Source: an uncultured Sphingomonadaceae bacterium
GTDB taxonomy: Bacteria; Pseudomonadota; Alphaproteobacteria; Sphingomonadales; Sphingomonadaceae
NCBI GenBank assembly: GCA_947489315.1
Contig: CANLCX010000002.1
Span: forward strand, 372,001 to 436,000
DNA: 64,000 bases
Direction: 5' to 3'
Under the pieces are notes generated by a model. It was not told where the DNA came from, searched no databases, and saw nothing but the letters and a program-made list of their open reading frames with translations. Shown one piece after another: positions 20,944 through 30,962 of this stretch. How positions within the stretch are numbered: the stretch's first letter is position 1; each line of letters begins with the position of its first letter. Position numbers and translations under genes: made by a program.

Positions 20944-21044
20944 GCATTGGCCAGAGCATCGGCGCGATCCTTATATGCACCAATACCCCTATTCATAATC
21001 GGCTCACACGCGCCTAGCTATGTTGCATCGCTATGGAGGCCAGC

Positions 21045-21599
21045 ATGAACCTATCGGCCAAACTAAAGCTCTCGCTTAGCCTGATATCCTTTGCCCTGAT
21101 CAGCGCCTGCGCTGGCAAGCCCGGACCCGTCGGCAATAAAGCGGTGCCAGAGCCCGCCAAGGCGGTGGAACTGGATCGCTATCTCGGCAAATGGTTTGAA
21201 ATGGCGCGCTATGAAGCGCCGTTTCAAAAGGGCTGCGACGGCGTGACCGCCGAATATTCCCTGCGTGACACCGATGCGTCCGAGCCAAAGATAAAGGTCG
21301 TCAACAGCTGTACCAAAGACGGCAAAACCACCACCGCCAATGGCAAGGCGAAAATCGTCGAGGGCAGCCAGAACGCGAAGCTGAAAGTCTCCTTCTTCGG
21401 CCCCTTTTACGGCGATTACTGGGTGCTGGACCGGGCGGAAGATTATAGCTGGGCCATTGTCGGCGAACCCAGCGGGCGCTACCTGTGGATGCTCACGCGA
21501 CAGGCACAACCCGAGCCGCAAGTGCGCGCGCGGATTGAGGCGCGGGTGAAAGAGCTTGGCTATGACTGGAATTTGGTGAGGGTTACGGATCAGGGTTGA
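21045..21599 (+). CDS. blc: Bacterial lipocalin (Blc-like lipoprotein)
   Basis: This 184-residue outer-membrane-type lipocalin has lipobox ISAC with Cys22. The mature barrel starts with the lipocalin signature DRYLGKWFEMARYE (GKW at 48-50) and has the later motifs FFGPFYGDYWVLDRAEDYSWAIVG and the C-terminal helix region. Blc-type lipocalins bind lysophospholipids and other lipids in the envelope. ATG 21045 has GGAGG 6 bases upstream; an earlier in-frame ATG at 21033 is less likely. It stands alone, with about 100 bases upstream. Confidence 0.93.
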   Translation: MNLSAKLKLSLSLISFALISACAGKPGPVGNKAVPEPAKAVELDRYLGKWFEMARYEAPFQKGCDGVTAEYSLRDTDASEPKIKVVNSCTKDGKTTTANGKAKIVEGSQNAKLKVSFFGPFYGDYWVLDRAEDYSWAIVGEPSGRYLWMLTRQAQPEPQVRARIEARVKELGYDWNLVRVTDQG

Positions 21600-21708
21600 G
21601 GGTGGGCAGTAGGTCGGTTTAGAGTGTTTGTCATGGGGCTGAGAACGGGCTGCCTTTTAAGTGTGTAATAAAGAGGCGTCACTTTTTCACATACCTTTGT
21701 TCTTCGTC

Positions 21709-21743
21709 AAAATATTTAGACATTGTAATTTACTAAAATATTT
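21709..21743. repeat. Imperfect inverted repeat ahead of the ParB-like gene
   Basis: Two arms, AAAATATTTAG (21709-21719) and CTAAAATATTT (21733-21743), face each other across 13 bases, with one extra A in the second arm. They lie 40-75 bases before the ParB-like start, in the AT-rich upstream DNA. This could be an operator or simply AT-rich chance; each core AAATATTT is itself palindromic. Confidence 0.35.
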
Positions 21744-21782
21744 GTTCATCTTGATGCTTCTGACAAAAGGCTGGCAATCAAA

Positions 21783-23207
21783 ATGAGATTTCATGATATT
21801 CGAGAATTCGGTGTCGAAGACCTTCTTCTTGATGAAGGTAACTACCGATTCAAAAAAGCTGCTAACCAACAGGAATGTGTGGCAAAAATATATAGTGGAA
21901 ACACTAATTATTTCAAAGGCTTACTGAAAAGCATTGCCGAAGATGATATTGGTGAACCTCTGCTTGTGTATGTAAAAGGGAAAAGCAATATTGTCCTTGA
22001 TGGCAATCGGAGGCTAGCCGTTCTGAAAGTTCTTTTAGACGATAGTTACTTGCCCGCAGAAAGTCTTCGCGACTATGTCGAAAAACTTCGTAAACTAAAT
22101 GTTGTCGATTTTTCAAATATTCAAGCACAAGTTTCCTCGAATAAAACACTAATTATGCGCACAGTTTATGAGCGCCATGCCGGAGGTAAGACCGGCAAGG
22201 CCAGAATTGCGTGGAACGCGTACGCGTCGGCACGATTTGGATATTTTGAAGAAATTGGCGGTAGCAACGAATGGCACTTCATAGCACTTCTCACCAAAAC
22301 AGAAGAGAAGCATCCCAATGTTACAAAGTATCTCGATGGCAATAAATTTTCCTATGAAACGTTCAGACGCCTGATGAGGGAGGCTTTCAAAAGAGAACTA
22401 ATTTCACCAGAAATATTCTCATCAAGAAACAAACGAGTGAAAACTACCGCCCCAAAAAATCTCGTTGCCGATGCAATCGCAAAAACTCTCAAAATTTTAA
22501 AGGCAATGAAAGACAGGAAAATCTCGCTGTCTAGAGGCGAAAATTTTGCTGATAAAGATACCGTTGAAAGGTTTTTTGACAATTTTTCGCTCTCGCCAGA
22601 CGCGCAAAGAGCTGCAGATGCCAAAGCCGCTGGCGAAACTCATAATGAATCAGATGACACATCGAACTCCACTTCAGACAATGATGGAAACAAAGATGCT
22701 GACGACAACGAAGCAAATCCACAGAATGACACGGACGACTCATCCAAAAGTAACGGCAGGTCAAACAATCAAAATGGCATAGCAAAGTCAGAAGACGTGG
22801 AGACGAGGCTCAAAACCCTAGGTTCAAAAAAATTGATCGGTCTATACAAGTCGCTTGAGATTGTATCTCTCGAGAGACATCCTCAGCTTATGTATGTAGG
22901 TGCTTGGAGCTTCTTCGAAGTTTTGTCAAAAATTGCTGGGAATACAAAAGCGCACACCACTAGTACGCCCGACTTTCCTTCATTTTTTCGACAGAAAATG
23001 AAGGCATGGAACTTCGATGCAGCGGATCAGTCAGACTGGGGAAATACTTTAGATATCATTTCCAAATACGGCAATTCTACTAAGCATTCAAAACGCTCAA
23101 ACCCTGTTACTGCGATACAGTTAAGAAGCGATTTTTTTGAATTGGAACCATTGATCTTGAAAGTAATTGACGAGGCCATCTCTCAAACCGAAAAAAAGAA
23201 AATTTGA
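21783..23207 (+). CDS. ParB-like (ParB/Srx fold) protein with acidic linker and unknown C-terminal domain
   Basis: This 474-residue protein has three parts. The N-terminal domain carries the ParB-like signature IVLDGNRRLAVLKVLL (residues 70-85) followed by a conserved-looking YERHAGGKTGKARIAW. A low-complexity linker rich in Asp, Asn and Ser spans about 284-335. A helical C-terminal domain (about 336-470) has GAWSFFEVLSKIAG and ISKYGNSTKHSKRS. The ParB/Srx fold includes DNA-binding CTPases and nucleases; which applies here is unknown. Codon use and base composition are far more AT-rich than the flanking genes, implying recent transfer. It overlaps the adenine methyltransferase start by one base (TGATG). 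Confidence 0.75.
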   Translation: MRFHDIREFGVEDLLLDEGNYRFKKAANQQECVAKIYSGNTNYFKGLLKSIAEDDIGEPLLVYVKGKSNIVLDGNRRLAVLKVLLDDSYLPAESLRDYVEKLRKLNVVDFSNIQAQVSSNKTLIMRTVYERHAGGKTGKARIAWNAYASARFGYFEEIGGSNEWHFIALLTKTEEKHPNVTKYLDGNKFSYETFRRLMREAFKRELISPEIFSSRNKRVKTTAPKNLVADAIAKTLKILKAMKDRKISLSRGENFADKDTVERFFDNFSLSPDAQRAADAKAAGETHNESDDTSNSTSDNDGNKDADDNEANPQNDTDDSSKSNGRSNNQNGIAKSEDVETRLKTLGSKKLIGLYKSLEIVSLERHPQLMYVGAWSFFEVLSKIAGNTKAHTTSTPDFPSFFRQKMKAWNFDAADQSDWGNTLDIISKYGNSTKHSKRSNPVTAIQLRSDFFELEPLILKVIDEAISQTEKKKI

Positions 23208-24067
23208 TGAAACAACAATATTATTCACCATTGCGTTACCCCGGAGGCAAAGGAAAGTTGCTTCAGTTCGTGAAAGACCTTGTGGTTCATAATGGCTTGG
23301 AGGATGGCAGCTACAGCGAACCATTCGCGGGAGGGGCAAGCGTAGCTCTTGGTTTATTGCTAGACGATTTTGTTTCGGAAATTCACATCAATGATATTGA
23401 TGAAGGAATATATAGCTTTTGGTTTTCCGTTCTGCAGCAAACAGATGATTTTTTAAAAAAAATTTGGGAAACACCGTTGACCGTGGAAGAATGGCGACGT
23501 CAACTTTACATTCACAAAAATAAATCTGACTTTCCAATGATTGATGTAGGTTTTTCAACGTTCTTCTTAAATAGAACTAATAGGTCAGGTATCGTTAGCG
23601 CTGGAGTAATCGGCGGAATTGATCAGAATGGAAACTACAAAATTGACGCAAGATTTAATAAGGATGGCTTAGCAAAGCGCATCATTCGAATCGCAAATTG
23701 CAAAGACCAGATCAATGTTTACAAGCAAGATGCGTTAGATTTTATAACCAAAACATTGCCAGCTAATAAAACGAAGGGACTGATTTTTTTGGATCCTCCA
23801 TACTACGTCAAAGGAAAAAGGTTATATACCAATTTTTATGAACACGAAGATCATGAAAAGGTAGCGAGCGCAATAAAATCCAGCCCGCACAAACATTGGA
23901 TTGTGACGTATGATAGTGCCGATCAAATTGATGAAATCTATGATCTGAAAAATCAAATCACTTACAACCTTAGATACAGCCTTTCACACCGCAGCAGCGC
24001 AGGGTCTGAGTTCCTTTTCTACAGCGATTCTGTTGAACTTCCCTACCATCCAAACGATGGGCCTTAA
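23207..24067 (+). CDS. DNA adenine N6-methyltransferase (D12/Dam class)
   Basis: This 286-residue Dam-class enzyme transfers a methyl group from S-adenosylmethionine to adenine N6 in DNA. Motif X is RYPGGKGKL (10-18), motif I SEPFAGGAS (37-45), the region FFLNRTNRSGI (119-129) is typical of the class, and motif IV is DPPYY (196-200). The target sequence is not predictable. The gene is AT-rich like its partner upstream and coupled to it (TGATG; a TTG at 23204 is an alternative start). No restriction endonuclease of a known family is adjacent, so it is an orphan, or its partner is the ParB-like protein. Confidence 0.93.
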   Translation: MKQQYYSPLRYPGGKGKLLQFVKDLVVHNGLEDGSYSEPFAGGASVALGLLLDDFVSEIHINDIDEGIYSFWFSVLQQTDDFLKKIWETPLTVEEWRRQLYIHKNKSDFPMIDVGFSTFFLNRTNRSGIVSAGVIGGIDQNGNYKIDARFNKDGLAKRIIRIANCKDQINVYKQDALDFITKTLPANKTKGLIFLDPPYYVKGKRLYTNFYEHEDHEKVASAIKSSPHKHWIVTYDSADQIDEIYDLKNQITYNLRYSLSHRSSAGSEFLFYSDSVELPYHPNDGP

Positions 24068-24158
24068 ACTATTAATGCGATTATAGCGACCGTGCACTCC
24101 ACTCATTACACAACGCGTTCCACCCGCTCGAGCGCAGCGGCAATCTGCCCACCATCTA

Positions 24159-25040
24159 TCACAACCCACCGCGAAACTCCGCATAGGCCGCCATCACATC
24201 CGCTGCCCCTTCGGTCTGCGGATAATGGCCCAGATGGTCCAGCCGCCACGCCGGAACCCGCGGGTTCAGCGCCGCGACCGCGTCGACCAGATGGCCGCCG
24301 GAGACCGGGTCCTGGGTGCCGTTAATCAGCGCGATCGGGCATGGCGGGTGGGTCAGCTGGGCTTCCCAGCGGGGACCGTGGGTGCGGCGGTCGGCGATAT
24401 AGTGGAGCAGCTTGTGCTGCAGCCGGTGGCCGCCGTTGGTGCAGATGACGGCCCAATAGGCGTCGAGTTCCGCTGCGGCGGGCTGCGTATCCTTGCCGAA
24501 AACCTCGCTAAAGCTTTTGCCGAAACGCTCCCGGTTCATCAGGTGCACGAACAGCCAGCCAAAGGGTCCGGTGAGCAATTTTTGAATCGGCCGTGCGCGA
24601 TGCTGCGCGGGGAGCAGGCCGCCGTTGAGAAAGGCGCAGCTCAGCAATTTGTGCGCCAGCCTGCCCTCGCCCTGCCGCGCGAGCAATTCCTGCCCCGGGC
24701 TGACGCCATAATCATGGACGAGGAGATGAAAATCCTGACCCAATAAGGTCTCGGCCAGATGGGCCGCGAGATCGCTCTGTTCCTGTAAATCATAAACATG
24801 CCGCTTCGGCTTGTCGGAAAAGCCAAAGCCAAGAAAATCAAACGCCACCACCCGGTATCGCGCCGTCAGATCCGCCCACATCGGCAGCCAGTCGAGGCTG
24901 GAGGTCGGAAAGCCGTGGAACAAGAGGAGCGGCGGCGCGGACTCGTCACCGCCGGTGCGGACGAAGATTTGATGACCGTGCCATGTGATGTGCTGGCCGT
25001 CTGCTCGCCATTGGGCGGCGGATTGCGTGTTGATAGTCAT
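24159..25040 (-). CDS. MEST-like alpha/beta hydrolase with Asp nucleophile
   Basis: This 293-residue alpha/beta hydrolase of the epoxide-hydrolase/haloalkane-dehalogenase branch has nucleophile Asp110 in LLVHDYGVSPGQELLAR, oxyanion HGFPTSS near 42-48, the DFLGFGFSDKP loop, a cap domain, and the LDHLGHYPQTE His motif near the end. The cap segment LSCAFLNGGLLPAQHRARPIQ closely recalls vertebrate MEST/PEG1 proteins, whose chemistry is unsettled. Composition is normal for this chromosome, unlike the AT-rich genes on both sides. It is convergent with the methyltransferase gene. Confidence 0.85.
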   Translation of the reverse strand: MTINTQSAAQWRADGQHITWHGHQIFVRTGGDESAPPLLLFHGFPTSSLDWLPMWADLTARYRVVAFDFLGFGFSDKPKRHVYDLQEQSDLAAHLAETLLGQDFHLLVHDYGVSPGQELLARQGEGRLAHKLLSCAFLNGGLLPAQHRARPIQKLLTGPFGWLFVHLMNRERFGKSFSEVFGKDTQPAAAELDAYWAVICTNGGHRLQHKLLHYIADRRTHGPRWEAQLTHPPCPIALINGTQDPVSGGHLVDAVAALNPRVPAWRLDHLGHYPQTEGAADVMAAYAEFRGGL

Positions 25041-25135: not shown

Positions 25136-26299
25136 TTAAACTGCTACACTACGCTTTTTCCAGTCAATAAGTTTGATGCTTTCGAGCCTGGGTGCGAGTA
25201 AAGCAGCGAACGCTATCGCAATAACAAGAGCGACTATGCTTGCCAAAACGCTTGGAACAAAACGGCCAAACAGACTAGGTTGAGAAATGCCATATATCAC
25301 CAACAATATGGGAAAATGTGTGACATATAAGGTGTATGATAATTTCGCAGAAGACGGCAATAAAGGCTTTAACTGTAATATGCCAAATACAATGAGGTAT
25401 AGACCCGAAGCAAATGTCAGACCGGAAATGACGTTGAATAATACTATAAGGTTTGAAGGGTATTCAGATGGACTTTGTGCATTTTTGGCCATCCCAACAT
25501 ACACGGCAGCCGTAAGAAGAGTTACGACAAGAAGGGTTGCGCCAGCGAAAGTGACGTACGGTTTTACCCTGATGTTGTGATTATGGAGCAGAGCGATGGC
25601 TGCACCACCAAACCAGACTAGTGAGTAAAAGGCGAAAGGCGCGTTGGTGTAACCCAATGTCAAAATGAGCGCTATGCTGAACAGGGCGCCAGATTTGGGT
25701 TTCCACGCTACCAAACCCGCAATTACATAGTACCAAACCTCGAAGGAAAGGCTCCACAGAGGGCCATTAGCTGAAATATTCTTAACAAAAAAACCGTTTA
25801 GGAAGAGCATTGTCCCTGCCCAATCAACAAGATTGACTGAGAAACCATTCCGAACAACAAAATTGCCAGTAAACTGATAAGCATTTGATCCACTTGGGAA
25901 AAAATATGGTGCAAGGATATACAAAGCCGCCACCAGTATCATCGCAAAAAGCAATGGTGGATAAATTCTGTTCAATCTATCGATGCTGTAAGAACTAATC
26001 GAAAATCCGCCTTGCTGATCGAAATTGCGTGTTATCGATTTTGTAATTAAAAATCCGCTTAGGACAAAGAACATCATGACGGCGCCCTGTGCAACCAATC
26101 CGAAAATTGGGAATAAAGTTGGCGAAATTGGAGCGATGAAAACCTGAAAGCAGTGGCCGAAGACCACCGCCAATGCTGAGAGGCCACGCAGAGAATCCAG
26201 TTGGATAGACACATCCTTATTGATGGACTGGTGATTTGCAAAAAGACGTGACATATTGCGGCTATTGCAGCGCGCATGATCTGATTTCGACGAATTCAA
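25136..26299 (-). CDS. Acyltransferase 3 (OafA/YrhL) family membrane protein
   Basis: This 387-residue integral membrane O-acyltransferase has about ten transmembrane helices and the family start QLDSLRGLSALAVVFGHCFQ, with the catalytic-type His in the first helix region. Such proteins acetylate or succinylate sugars of lipopolysaccharide, capsules or secreted glycans. Composition is more AT-rich than the surrounding core genes, suggesting transfer. The start is ambiguous: TTG 26299 has AGAGGA just upstream, while ATG 26254 has no visible ribosome site but gives a more usual N-terminus. It stands alone, followed by the MEST-like gene on the same strand after about 95 bases. Confidence 0.88.
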   Translation of the reverse strand: MNSSKSDHARCNSRNMSRLFANHQSINKDVSIQLDSLRGLSALAVVFGHCFQVFIAPISPTLFPIFGLVAQGAVMMFFVLSGFLITKSITRNFDQQGGFSISSYSIDRLNRIYPPLLFAMILVAALYILAPYFFPSGSNAYQFTGNFVVRNGFSVNLVDWAGTMLFLNGFFVKNISANGPLWSLSFEVWYYVIAGLVAWKPKSGALFSIALILTLGYTNAPFAFYSLVWFGGAAIALLHNHNIRVKPYVTFAGATLLVVTLLTAAVYVGMAKNAQSPSEYPSNLIVLFNVISGLTFASGLYLIVFGILQLKPLLPSSAKLSYTLYVTHFPILLVIYGISQPSLFGRFVPSVLASIVALVIAIAFAALLAPRLESIKLIDWKKRSVAV

Positions 26300-26691: not shown

Positions 26692-27222
26692 TCAGATATC
26701 TGCCAACATATCGCCCAGCTGGCGGACGCGGGCGCGGACCGAGGCGGCGCTGTCCTTGGCTGCAGCGCGCGCGGCATCGCGGGCGGCATGGCCATATTCG
26801 GGATGCTGGGCAGCGATCCGGCACAGCGCGTCCACCGACCAGGCGCGCAGAAACGGGCGGTCGTGGTGGAGAAGCGGCGTGAGCCAGCGATCCATGGTTG
26901 CAGCGCCGTCTGCGGAGAAGCTGAGATAGGCCGCGCTCTGACAGATATGCAGCTGCGCCTGCCAGTATCGGATCGCGGGGATTTCGTCCCATAAGGCTTC
27001 GCCTTGCGCAGCGGAAAGCGCCTCCCCGCGTTCGAGCGCCGCCTTGATCAGCCAGGTCGCACCGCTCGACACCTCTGCCTGATCATGCGCGGCGAGCGCG
27101 ATCAATGCGTCGAGATAGGCCGCCTCACCCCGATAGTCCGCCTCGACCTCACCCAAGATGCTGACCGCCCGGCCATCAAAGGCCTGAAGACGGGTGAGCA
27201 AGGCGGCGGCAGACAGGGCCAT
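26692..27222 (-). CDS. HEAT-like helical repeat protein of unknown function
   Basis: This 176-residue, all-helical, Ala-rich protein has repeating amphipathic helix pairs reminiscent of HEAT/ARM repeats, for example YLDALIALAAHDQAEVSSG and RPFLRAWSVDALCRIAAQHP. It has no signal peptide, and I assign no function. The ATG at 27222 lies 8 bases after the stop of the ridA-like gene and is third in the thiC operon; an upstream in-frame start at 27276 would overlap that gene. A role in thiamine metabolism is only suggested by position. Confidence 0.65.
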   Translation of the reverse strand: MALSAAALLTRLQAFDGRAVSILGEVEADYRGEAAYLDALIALAAHDQAEVSSGATWLIKAALERGEALSAAQGEALWDEIPAIRYWQAQLHICQSAAYLSFSADGAATMDRWLTPLLHHDRPFLRAWSVDALCRIAAQHPEYGHAARDAARAAAKDSAASVRARVRQLGDMLADI

Positions 27223-27230
27223 GGGGGTGT

Positions 27231-29745
<2,515 letters not shown>

Positions 29746-29831
29746 GTCGCAAGCTACTGCGCCCATGCCCGAAGGTCCAGCGAAGATTATCTATGGTAGC
29801 GATAGAAGCTGCGTGACGAAGCGCGAATTTC

Positions 29832-30962
29832 CTACCAGCCGGGGACGAAATATTTCGGCGGCACCGCGCATCCCCAGTAAAAGCCCTGTCCAAAATCGGC
29901 ACCCAAGAGCCGCGCCTGCGCCAAATGATGTTTGGTTTCAATGCCTTCAATCACCGACCGCGCCTTACGACCGCGGCAGAATTCCAGCATCGATGCCAAG
30001 AGCGAGATTGGAATATCTCCATCATAACAGGCGTTGAAAATCGTCTTGTCGATCTTCAATTCATCAAAGGGGATTTTCGCGATCCGCTCCAGATTGGCGA
30101 GGCCCGTGCCGTAATCGTCAATCGAAATGCCAAGCCCATGACCGCGGAGCACATGGCACACAGCGGCCAGCCGGTCGACATCGACCACCCGCGCTTCCTC
30201 GGTAATCTCCAAGATCAAGGCGCCGGGCGGCACATCGGCATGTTTCAGGCGGCTGATCAGCGCATCCACAAAGCGCCGATAGGTCATCATGATCGCGCTG
30301 CAATTAAACGAAACCGGAACCGGCTTGCCGCGTTTCGCCAAAGCAGTGGCCAGCTTGATCGATTCATCCACCACCACCAATGTTGCTTCTACCTCGACCG
30401 CGACATCGACCAGATCGGAAAAGATGATCGCCGGGTTCAAAGCGCGCCGGGTCTTGACCCGGGTCAGCGCCTCGTAACCGACAATTTTGTCGTTATCCAA
30501 AGACTGTTTAGACTGAAACTCGACCGAGAGGTTCGGCAGCAGCCGATCCGTTTCCACTAGCGCACAAACATAATCGAGATCATTGGCGATATGGCCGCTG
30601 ACATCGGCCATGCGCCCGATTAAATTGCATAATGTTGGCACGGCATAGGGTTTCTGCAGCCGCTGTACGACGCTGGCGCTATCAAAGGCGAGCGAGTCAT
30701 CGCCGCTATCTTTCGGGTTCGGCGTCAATATGACCGGCAGCGAAGGCCGCAATCCCGCGAAACGCTCGAGCAAGCCATGGCCATTTTCACGCATGCTTTT
30801 GGGATCAATGATGAGCGCGTCCGGACCGAAGACCAAACTCGCTTCCTCATCCAGTTTGGAAAACACGCAGGCGACCGCAATATCATGCGCCTCCAGATCG
30901 TCCTGCAGGGATCGGGAGAGCGCATTTTCTTCTTCGACAATAATGACTTTTGCTGTGGACAT
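29832..30962 (-). CDS. EAL-domain protein with N-terminal receiver-like domain
   Basis: This 376-residue cytosolic protein has a receiver-like domain at about 1-120 (acidic E10-E12, Asp53 in ALIIDPKSM, Lys104-Pro105) and an EAL domain at about 140-370. The EAL domain keeps the catalytic-type motifs GYEALTR (EAL 164-166), SFNCSA, LEITEEA, SIDDYGTG, FDELKIDK, VIEGIET and GQGFYWG. It is therefore probably an active c-di-GMP phosphodiesterase. The domain order is that of RocR- and VieA-like regulators. GAGG lies about 8 bases before the ATG. No kinase is adjacent; SciP is encoded just upstream. Confidence 0.9.
   Translation of the reverse strand: MSTAKVIIVEEENALSRSLQDDLEAHDIAVACVFSKLDEEASLVFGPDALIIDPKSMRENGHGLLERFAGLRPSLPVILTPNPKDSGDDSLAFDSASVVQRLQKPYAVPTLCNLIGRMADVSGHIANDLDYVCALVETDRLLPNLSVEFQSKQSLDNDKIVGYEALTRVKTRRALNPAIIFSDLVDVAVEVEATLVVVDESIKLATALAKRGKPVPVSFNCSAIMMTYRRFVDALISRLKHADVPPGALILEITEEARVVDVDRLAAVCHVLRGHGLGISIDDYGTGLANLERIAKIPFDELKIDKTIFNACYDGDIPISLLASMLEFCRGRKARSVIEGIETKHHLAQARLLGADFGQGFYWGCAVPPKYFVPGW

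Follow-up and report, generated by a model that had tools for sequence, protein, structure and literature searches.

A diverged PD-lambda-5-type gene pair in a variable chromosomal slot of an uncultured Sphingomonadaceae bacterium

What does a DNA adenine methyltransferase gene do when its only partner is a gene of ParB type? The question is raised by an AT-rich block at positions 21660-24067 of a 64-kb stretch of DNA from an uncultured Sphingomonadaceae bacterium; this whole stretch of 64,000 nucleotides is referred to as the window. The block contains two co-directional genes, A and B, that overlap by one base in the sequence TGATG, with the ATG of B at 23207. An initial annotation, made from the letters of the window, described both reading frames and their overlap, which are indeed present and intact, and read the pair as a possible methylation-linked defence module.

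21783-23207, forward strand: gene A, PD-Lambda-5_A homologue, 474 amino acids (aa) (PADLOC PDLC04006, residues 1-472, 448 bits)
23207-24067, forward strand: gene B, PD-Lambda-5_B homologue, D12/Dam-class N6-adenine methyltransferase, 286 aa (PADLOC PDLC04018, 387 bits; Pfam MethyltransfD12)
21686-21713, forward strand: weak promoter candidate of sigma-70-like type ahead of A, matching at 9 of 12 positions (promoter scan)

The promoter candidate is no evidence by itself, because the scan gave 8 sites in the region against 4.4 (standard deviation 2.0) in shuffled sequences.

Identity and pairing of the two genes

PADLOC names both genes, and the known system to which they point went unrecognised in the initial annotation. 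The PD-Lambda-5_A profile covers residues 1-472 of the 474 in A with 448 bits, and B scores 387 bits against PD-Lambda-5_B. From these profile matches, the pair is almost certainly a PD-lambda-5 system, a diverged copy of a known anti-phage system. The two-gene system itself is therefore already known and the window copy is another member, distant in A. According to passages of PMC9519451, PD-lambda-5 was discovered by functional selection in E. coli and protects against phages, which by analogy makes an anti-phage role for the window copy highly probable. The outline of a methylation-linked defence module thus stands, given the protection by E. coli PD-lambda-5 and the end-to-end PADLOC matches, while the pair is not a new one.

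Pfam PF02086 (E 7.4e-18) places B among the D12-class adenine methyltransferases, and the DPPY motif of B at residues 196-199 (23792-23803) is invariant in 10 of 10 rows, which bears out the enzyme class first assigned to it. The best solved relative of B is 7m6b. It also fits the PADLOC type II methyltransferase model (324 bits), and against Dam (NCBIfam TIGR00571) it scores 52 bits, below the cut-off of 115. As described initially, B is accompanied by no recognised restriction enzyme: Pfam and NCBIfam show no nuclease family in A and there is no third gene in the cassette.

Passages of PMC9519451 term PD-lambda-5 'RM+Abi' (restriction-modification plus abortive infection), note that clones resembling classical restriction-modification by plaque phenotype had been removed, and describe an assay in an E. 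coli strain without the mrr region; the dual reading is restated in PMC10799925. The source of the system was a P2-like prophage according to PMC10482375, and hotspots containing it are reported in part of the literature for Vibrio europaeus and Pseudomonas islands. The word 'ParB' is absent from the main text of PMC9519451, where domains may be drawn in figures or supplements. The accessible text of the open literature searched names the system in genome surveys and yielded no paper working out its mechanism; a search combining ParB, HEPN, methyltransferase and phage defence led to a BREX paper with passages that do not describe this pair.

An E. coli relative (L275; loci and genomes carry L and G numbers) is found in a P2-like prophage, flanked by the genes for a replication endonuclease and the portal, and matches the two PADLOC models with 558 and 403 bits. 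Its methyltransferase is 47% identical to B over 283 aligned positions. The A proteins can be aligned only in the N-terminal 152 residues, with 31% identity. With the DNA of a viral relative (L080) as a megablast query, 22 of 5,426 E. coli genomes gave matches, L275 among them; none of the matches covered 80% of the query.

In viral sequences, the two genes often lie together. Among the A-seeded loci, taken as the best 80 of 118 confirmed (six of the 80 flagged as near-copies), a Dam-like gene lies within 200 base pairs (bp) of A in 60. This proportion depends on the length of A: it is 60 of 64 for proteins of at least 400 aa, with three of the other four stopping at a contig end, and 0 of 16 for shorter ones, nine of these being about 1 kb from a Dam-like gene on the opposite strand. 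At the B-seeded loci (the best 80 of at least 353 confirmed) there were 47 A hits, 45 of them within 150 bp; of the 33 loci with no A hit, four have less than 1 kb of sequence upstream of B. The distances of A and B correlate across 48 non-redundant pairs (8 of 56 removed as near-copies), with r 0.77 for the ParB part and 0.74 for the HEPN part of A and p 0.0005, the floor of 2000 permutations; shared descent alone could produce this correlation. An orphan Dam-type methyltransferase with an unrelated neighbour was rejected from the PADLOC matches, the adjacency in 60 of 80 loci and the correlated distances. The pair is present in an annotated phage record, Paracoccus phage vB_PkoS_Pkon1. A viral scan with A alone found none, and a plasmid tblastn search with A gave two records in which less than half of A was covered.

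Nine of the viral loci (L242, L246, L250, L251, L260-L262, L264 and L267) encode ParB-like proteins of about 370-390 aa, a length that leaves no room for the HEPN-like part, and their Dam-like gene is about 1 kb off on the other strand. At L067 (6132-9339), a short ParB-like protein is followed downstream by a different methyltransferase. These loci possibly represent a three-gene variant.

Cellular genomes present another picture. Of 396 genomes from the order, 18 have an A-like match, as do 15 of 385 from the class; both counts include this genome. When 31 cellular loci from other genomes were extended (the class hit in G536, with a broken reading frame, was omitted), nine had an adjacent Dam-like gene, three had one about 1 kb away and 19 had none in the fetched stretch, some of these stretches ending at contig ends. 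Recurrent pairing with a Dam-class enzyme, which the initial annotation had put forward as a check, is supported, the gene lying within 200 bp of A at 60 of the 80 viral loci; at 19 of the 31 cellular loci no such gene was found in the fetched stretch. A lack of such pairing had been named as what would speak against a defence module; it is found in part, at those 19 loci.

When 73 A sequences of at least 400 aa were placed in a tree, a single clade (support 100/97) took in 16 of the 17 that have no adjacent Dam-like gene. The viral rows of this tree had been collected through B, which builds adjacency into them, and several branches are long, which leaves other placements unsure.

L042-L045, L048, L050-L055, L065, L068-L070, L072: members of the methyltransferase-free clade, ParB plus HEPN-like proteins in cellular genomes, the fetched stretches showing no Dam-like methyltransferase

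One member (L072) is part of a type I restriction-modification operon, where it stands between the HsdS gene and the AAA and HsdR genes, and another (L069) is beside the Gabija pair GajA/GajB. This clade argues that A can function without B, with another mark or trigger, and it could help to tell the requirements of the sensor from the contribution of the methyltransferase. Window A groups instead with L002 within an 11-row clade (98/100). L002 is a 3.2-kb contig of a Deltaproteobacteria metagenome-assembled genome that carries the same pair, with identities of 54% to window A and 73% to B.

The chromosomal slot

The block was initially described as differing sharply in composition from its flanks, and it does: its GC content is 0.401 compared to 0.538 for the window, and it is the most AT-rich 2.4 kb, with the lowest value among 616 overlapping 2.4-kb windows (step 100). 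At third codon positions, GC is 0.387 in A and 0.390 in B compared to 0.720 and 0.762 in two flanking genes. The composition claim is based on the 64-kb window and the flanks in congeners. The boundaries of the insertion site are defined by two convergent genes.

21033-21599, forward strand: left flank, lipocalin-like lipoprotein gene (named by eye, with no family search)
21606-24158, no strand: variable slot, its cassette differing from congener to congener (nine compared), GC 0.409
24159-25040, reverse strand: right flank, alpha/beta-hydrolase gene (Pfam Abhydrolase_1), convergent with the left flank

The GC content of the slot, 0.409, compares to 0.598 for the 500 bases to the left and 0.640 for the 800 bases to the right. 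DNA matches to the left neighbour come from 11 of 32 genus genomes, its own included and one match being of only 87 bases, and the right neighbour has a substantial match in 13 of 32, its own included; four tiny match rows were ignored in these counts, one of which would raise the second tally to 14. In nine congeners the same site is bordered by both flanking genes (for the left gene of G790, the match is just 87 bases). The ten genomes carry ten different inserts of 1333-2621 bases, with a GC content of 0.39-0.49 compared to 0.58-0.64 outside, and the inserts break within about 10 bases of both stop codons of the convergent genes. Matches among the inserts are confined to their edges: about 70-225 bases beside the hydrolase in L182, L183 and L185, possibly what remains of the original intergenic sequence, and 47 bases common to L188 and L190. 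The interval 26698-30960 serves as a local control: all 8 congeners checked are syntenic with it at about 84-93%, except for breaks around 27245-27689.

Within the 32 genus genomes, A is found in this genome and, weakly, in G783 (25% over residues 11-158). The PD-lambda-5 pair has probably been acquired into a chromosomal cassette slot; the transfer that the initial annotation proposed is supported by the foreign composition together with the different content at the same site in congeners. A prophage remnant was rejected, since the cassette consists of A and B only, with no phage gene, and both flanking genes are common to congeners.

Defence-type genes occupy six of the ten cassettes.

Window: PD-lambda-5
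L182: HNH and Mrr-type endonuclease
L183: N6-methylase and specificity domain
L186: PDC-M41A/B pair
L187: reverse transcriptase (PADLOC RT 143 bits, UG17 114 bits)
L190: Schlafen AlbA_2 protein (Pfam only)

A search of NCBIfam with ten slot proteins gave nothing above cut-off. The L181 cassette appears lipoprotein-like by eye, and PADLOC and NCBIfam gave no match above cut-off for it; the cassettes of L184, L185 and L188 have none in Pfam, PADLOC or NCBIfam. Three further congeners retain the hydrolase side only: L189, with a GmrSD_N/NsnA-type gene and a HEPN gene, and L191 and L192, with AT-rich genes that have no convincing match. G794 retains only the left flanking gene. The best leads are four cassettes that are candidates for unrecognised defence systems.

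L184 1812-3247, forward strand: AT-rich cassette with no match above cut-off (Pfam, PADLOC, NCBIfam)
L185 1166-3247, reverse strand: AT-rich cassette with no match above cut-off (same databases)
L188 1498-3240, reverse strand: AT-rich cassette with no match above cut-off (same databases)
L192 2363-3849, reverse strand: AT-rich cassette beside the hydrolase only, with no match above cut-off (same databases)

The slot therefore provides a short list of compact cassettes beside defence-type ones within a single genus. Between the hydrolase and position 26698, the window also contains an AT-rich acyltransferase gene (25136-26299, reverse strand, GC 0.437); the corresponding interval is shorter than 200 bases in G800 and G798, and it looks like a second insertion.

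Domains of A and the possible mechanism

The predicted structure of A may be considered in terms of four regions.

21783-22193, forward strand: residues 1-137, predicted ParB-CTPase-type fold, with DGNRR at residues 73-77 (21999-22013)
22218-22637, forward strand: residues 146-285, helical domain, possibly ParB/KorB-like and DNA-binding (predicted secondary structure)
22638-22772, forward strand: residues 286-330, acidic low-complexity linker, predicted to be disordered (predicted local distance difference test, pLDDT)
22770-23204, forward strand: residues 330-474, HEPN-like domain by predicted fold, with His435 at 23085-23087

The DGNRR motif, the acidic linker and the helical C-terminal domain of the initial annotation are all recovered, the last as HEPN-like in predicted fold. 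Family searches contribute little: A has no match in Pfam or NCBIfam, phmmer and a profile of A gave none against PDB sequences, and a profile of the C-terminal domain gave six PDB rows, none of them HEPN by name.

When predicted folds were compared, the closest structures to the N-terminal part of A were ParB CTPase domains with cytidine triphosphate (CTP) or cytidine diphosphate (CDP). GNRR is kept in 27 of 27 A rows; in passages of PMC12704722, a phosphate-binding role is described for the P-motif arginine of ParB CTPases, and nucleotide specificity is said not to be reliably predictable from sequence or AlphaFold3. Alignments with KorB and the N-domain of a pNOB8-like ParB extend up to residues 270-280, with a root-mean-square deviation of about 6 Å, which for the helical region is only suggestive of a ParB/KorB-like DNA-binding domain. 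The linker has a pLDDT below 50 at residues 286-299 and 301-329.

The initial annotation had likened A to the GmrSD/DUF262 nucleases. A type IV enzyme of this kind was rejected since window A has no such Pfam match and ParB CTPase domains fit its N-terminal part better. In a related explanation, A would still be a DNA-cleaving partner: the ParB/Srx-type domain would nick or cut DNA that lacks the mark of B, the HEPN-like domain would dimerise or regulate, and the pair would be a compact restriction-modification system. ParB/Srx proteins with nicking activity are cited in passages of PMC12839542, a weak match to Pfam GmrSD_N (E 2.8e-4) appears in one of the 27 A rows, and the HEPN-like domain has no R-x4-6-H. 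This explanation is nevertheless unlikely, as ParB structures with CTP or CDP are the nearest to the N-terminal domain, Pfam and NCBIfam identify no nuclease family in window A, and the PMC9519451 passages state that clones with a classical restriction-modification plaque phenotype were discarded and label the system RM+Abi. Since the closest folds are ParB CTPases and A has a HEPN-like domain, a nuclease acting on unmarked DNA is just one of several possibilities.

In the predicted-fold search with the C-terminal domain, 13 of the top 24 structure entries were titled HEPN or HepT, and most of the remaining ones are presumably of HEPN type. HEPN/MNT toxins with partner enzymes were the top matches. 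A histidine (His435 in A) is invariant in 32 of 32 rows, roughly at the place expected for HEPN. R-x4-6-H occurs in 0 of the 32 rows; A was therefore not filed as a HEPN RNase. At the positions where a VH-type motif and an arginine stand in most rows, window A has GNSTKH and Trp375. Taken together, the predicted architecture suggests clamp-type sensing with an abortive effector.

The HEPN/MNT fold matches could indicate a toxin-antitoxin-like pair, in which a HEPN-like toxin would be restrained by B through binding or modification until phage infection disturbs B. While the TGATG overlap and the correlated distances of A and B fit with this as well, B retains invariant methyltransferase motifs, PD-lambda-5 is not among the toxin-antitoxin-like systems named in the PMC9519451 passages, and a 16-member clade has A without B, which makes such a pair quite improbable. 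Least probable by far is an absence of active defence here, with A as a remnant ParB of partition type and B as an anti-restriction methyltransferase carried along as a passenger. According to PMC12704722, a link to mobile elements is frequent for ParB-fold proteins encoded outside parAB operons. Against this reading, both reading frames are intact, inspection of the neighbours by eye showed no ParA gene, the PD-Lambda-5_A profile fits A from end to end, and the same slot holds other defence-type cassettes in congeners.

The best explanation overall, and a fairly probable one, is thus a PD-lambda-5 system in a cassette slot in which B would provide the marking and A both the sensing and the effector. 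It may be inferred that B methylates adenines in a short motif of host DNA, a mark of self, and that A, with the use of CTP or another nucleoside triphosphate (NTP) bound to its ParB-type domain, senses DNA without this mark. The ParB-type and helical domains would load as a clamp on such invading DNA; closure of the clamp, transmitted by the flexible acidic linker, would pair or free the HEPN-like domain, which may then halt infection by attacking RNA or another essential target. The overall logic would be that of restriction-modification with an abortive effector in place of the restriction endonuclease. The step from clamp to HEPN-like domain is drawn from predicted folds and is put forward tentatively. 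A further and more doubtful extension makes A an NTP-clamp-gated abortive switch: the ParB-type clamp would read the missing methyl mark and fire a non-canonical HEPN-like effector, and the 16-member clade would read the mark of another host enzyme, such as CcrM, which is the alphaproteobacterial cell-cycle methyltransferase, or the type I system that the L072 operon suggests. A handful of point mutants together with an assay for nucleotide binding would suffice to test the reading of A as a ParB-type clamp with a HEPN-like domain.

Comparison with known systems

With type II restriction-modification systems that have a Dam-class methyltransferase, the window pair shares an enzyme that matches the PADLOC type II model (324 bits). 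It differs in that Pfam, PADLOC and NCBIfam recognise no restriction endonuclease gene or domain at the pair; a new nuclease activity within A is possible.

The predicted N-terminal fold and the P-motif arginines of A resemble those of the ParB CTPases (ParB, Noc, KorB). In contrast, A has GNRR rather than GERR, continues with an acidic linker and a HEPN-like domain, and has no ParA partner that could be seen. The C-terminal region seems to resemble the HEPN domains of HEPN/MNT toxins, YutE and the C-terminus of AbiA in predicted fold and has an invariant histidine roughly where one is expected; it is unlike them in that all 32 A rows are without R-x4-6-H.

The closest system is PD-lambda-5, with the same two genes in the same order and end-to-end profile matches. 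While the E. coli relative resides in a P2-like prophage, the window pair occupies a slot between genes shared with congeners, and its A protein is a distant branch (31% identity to L275 over 152 N-terminal residues) that is distinguished by GNSTKH and Trp375.
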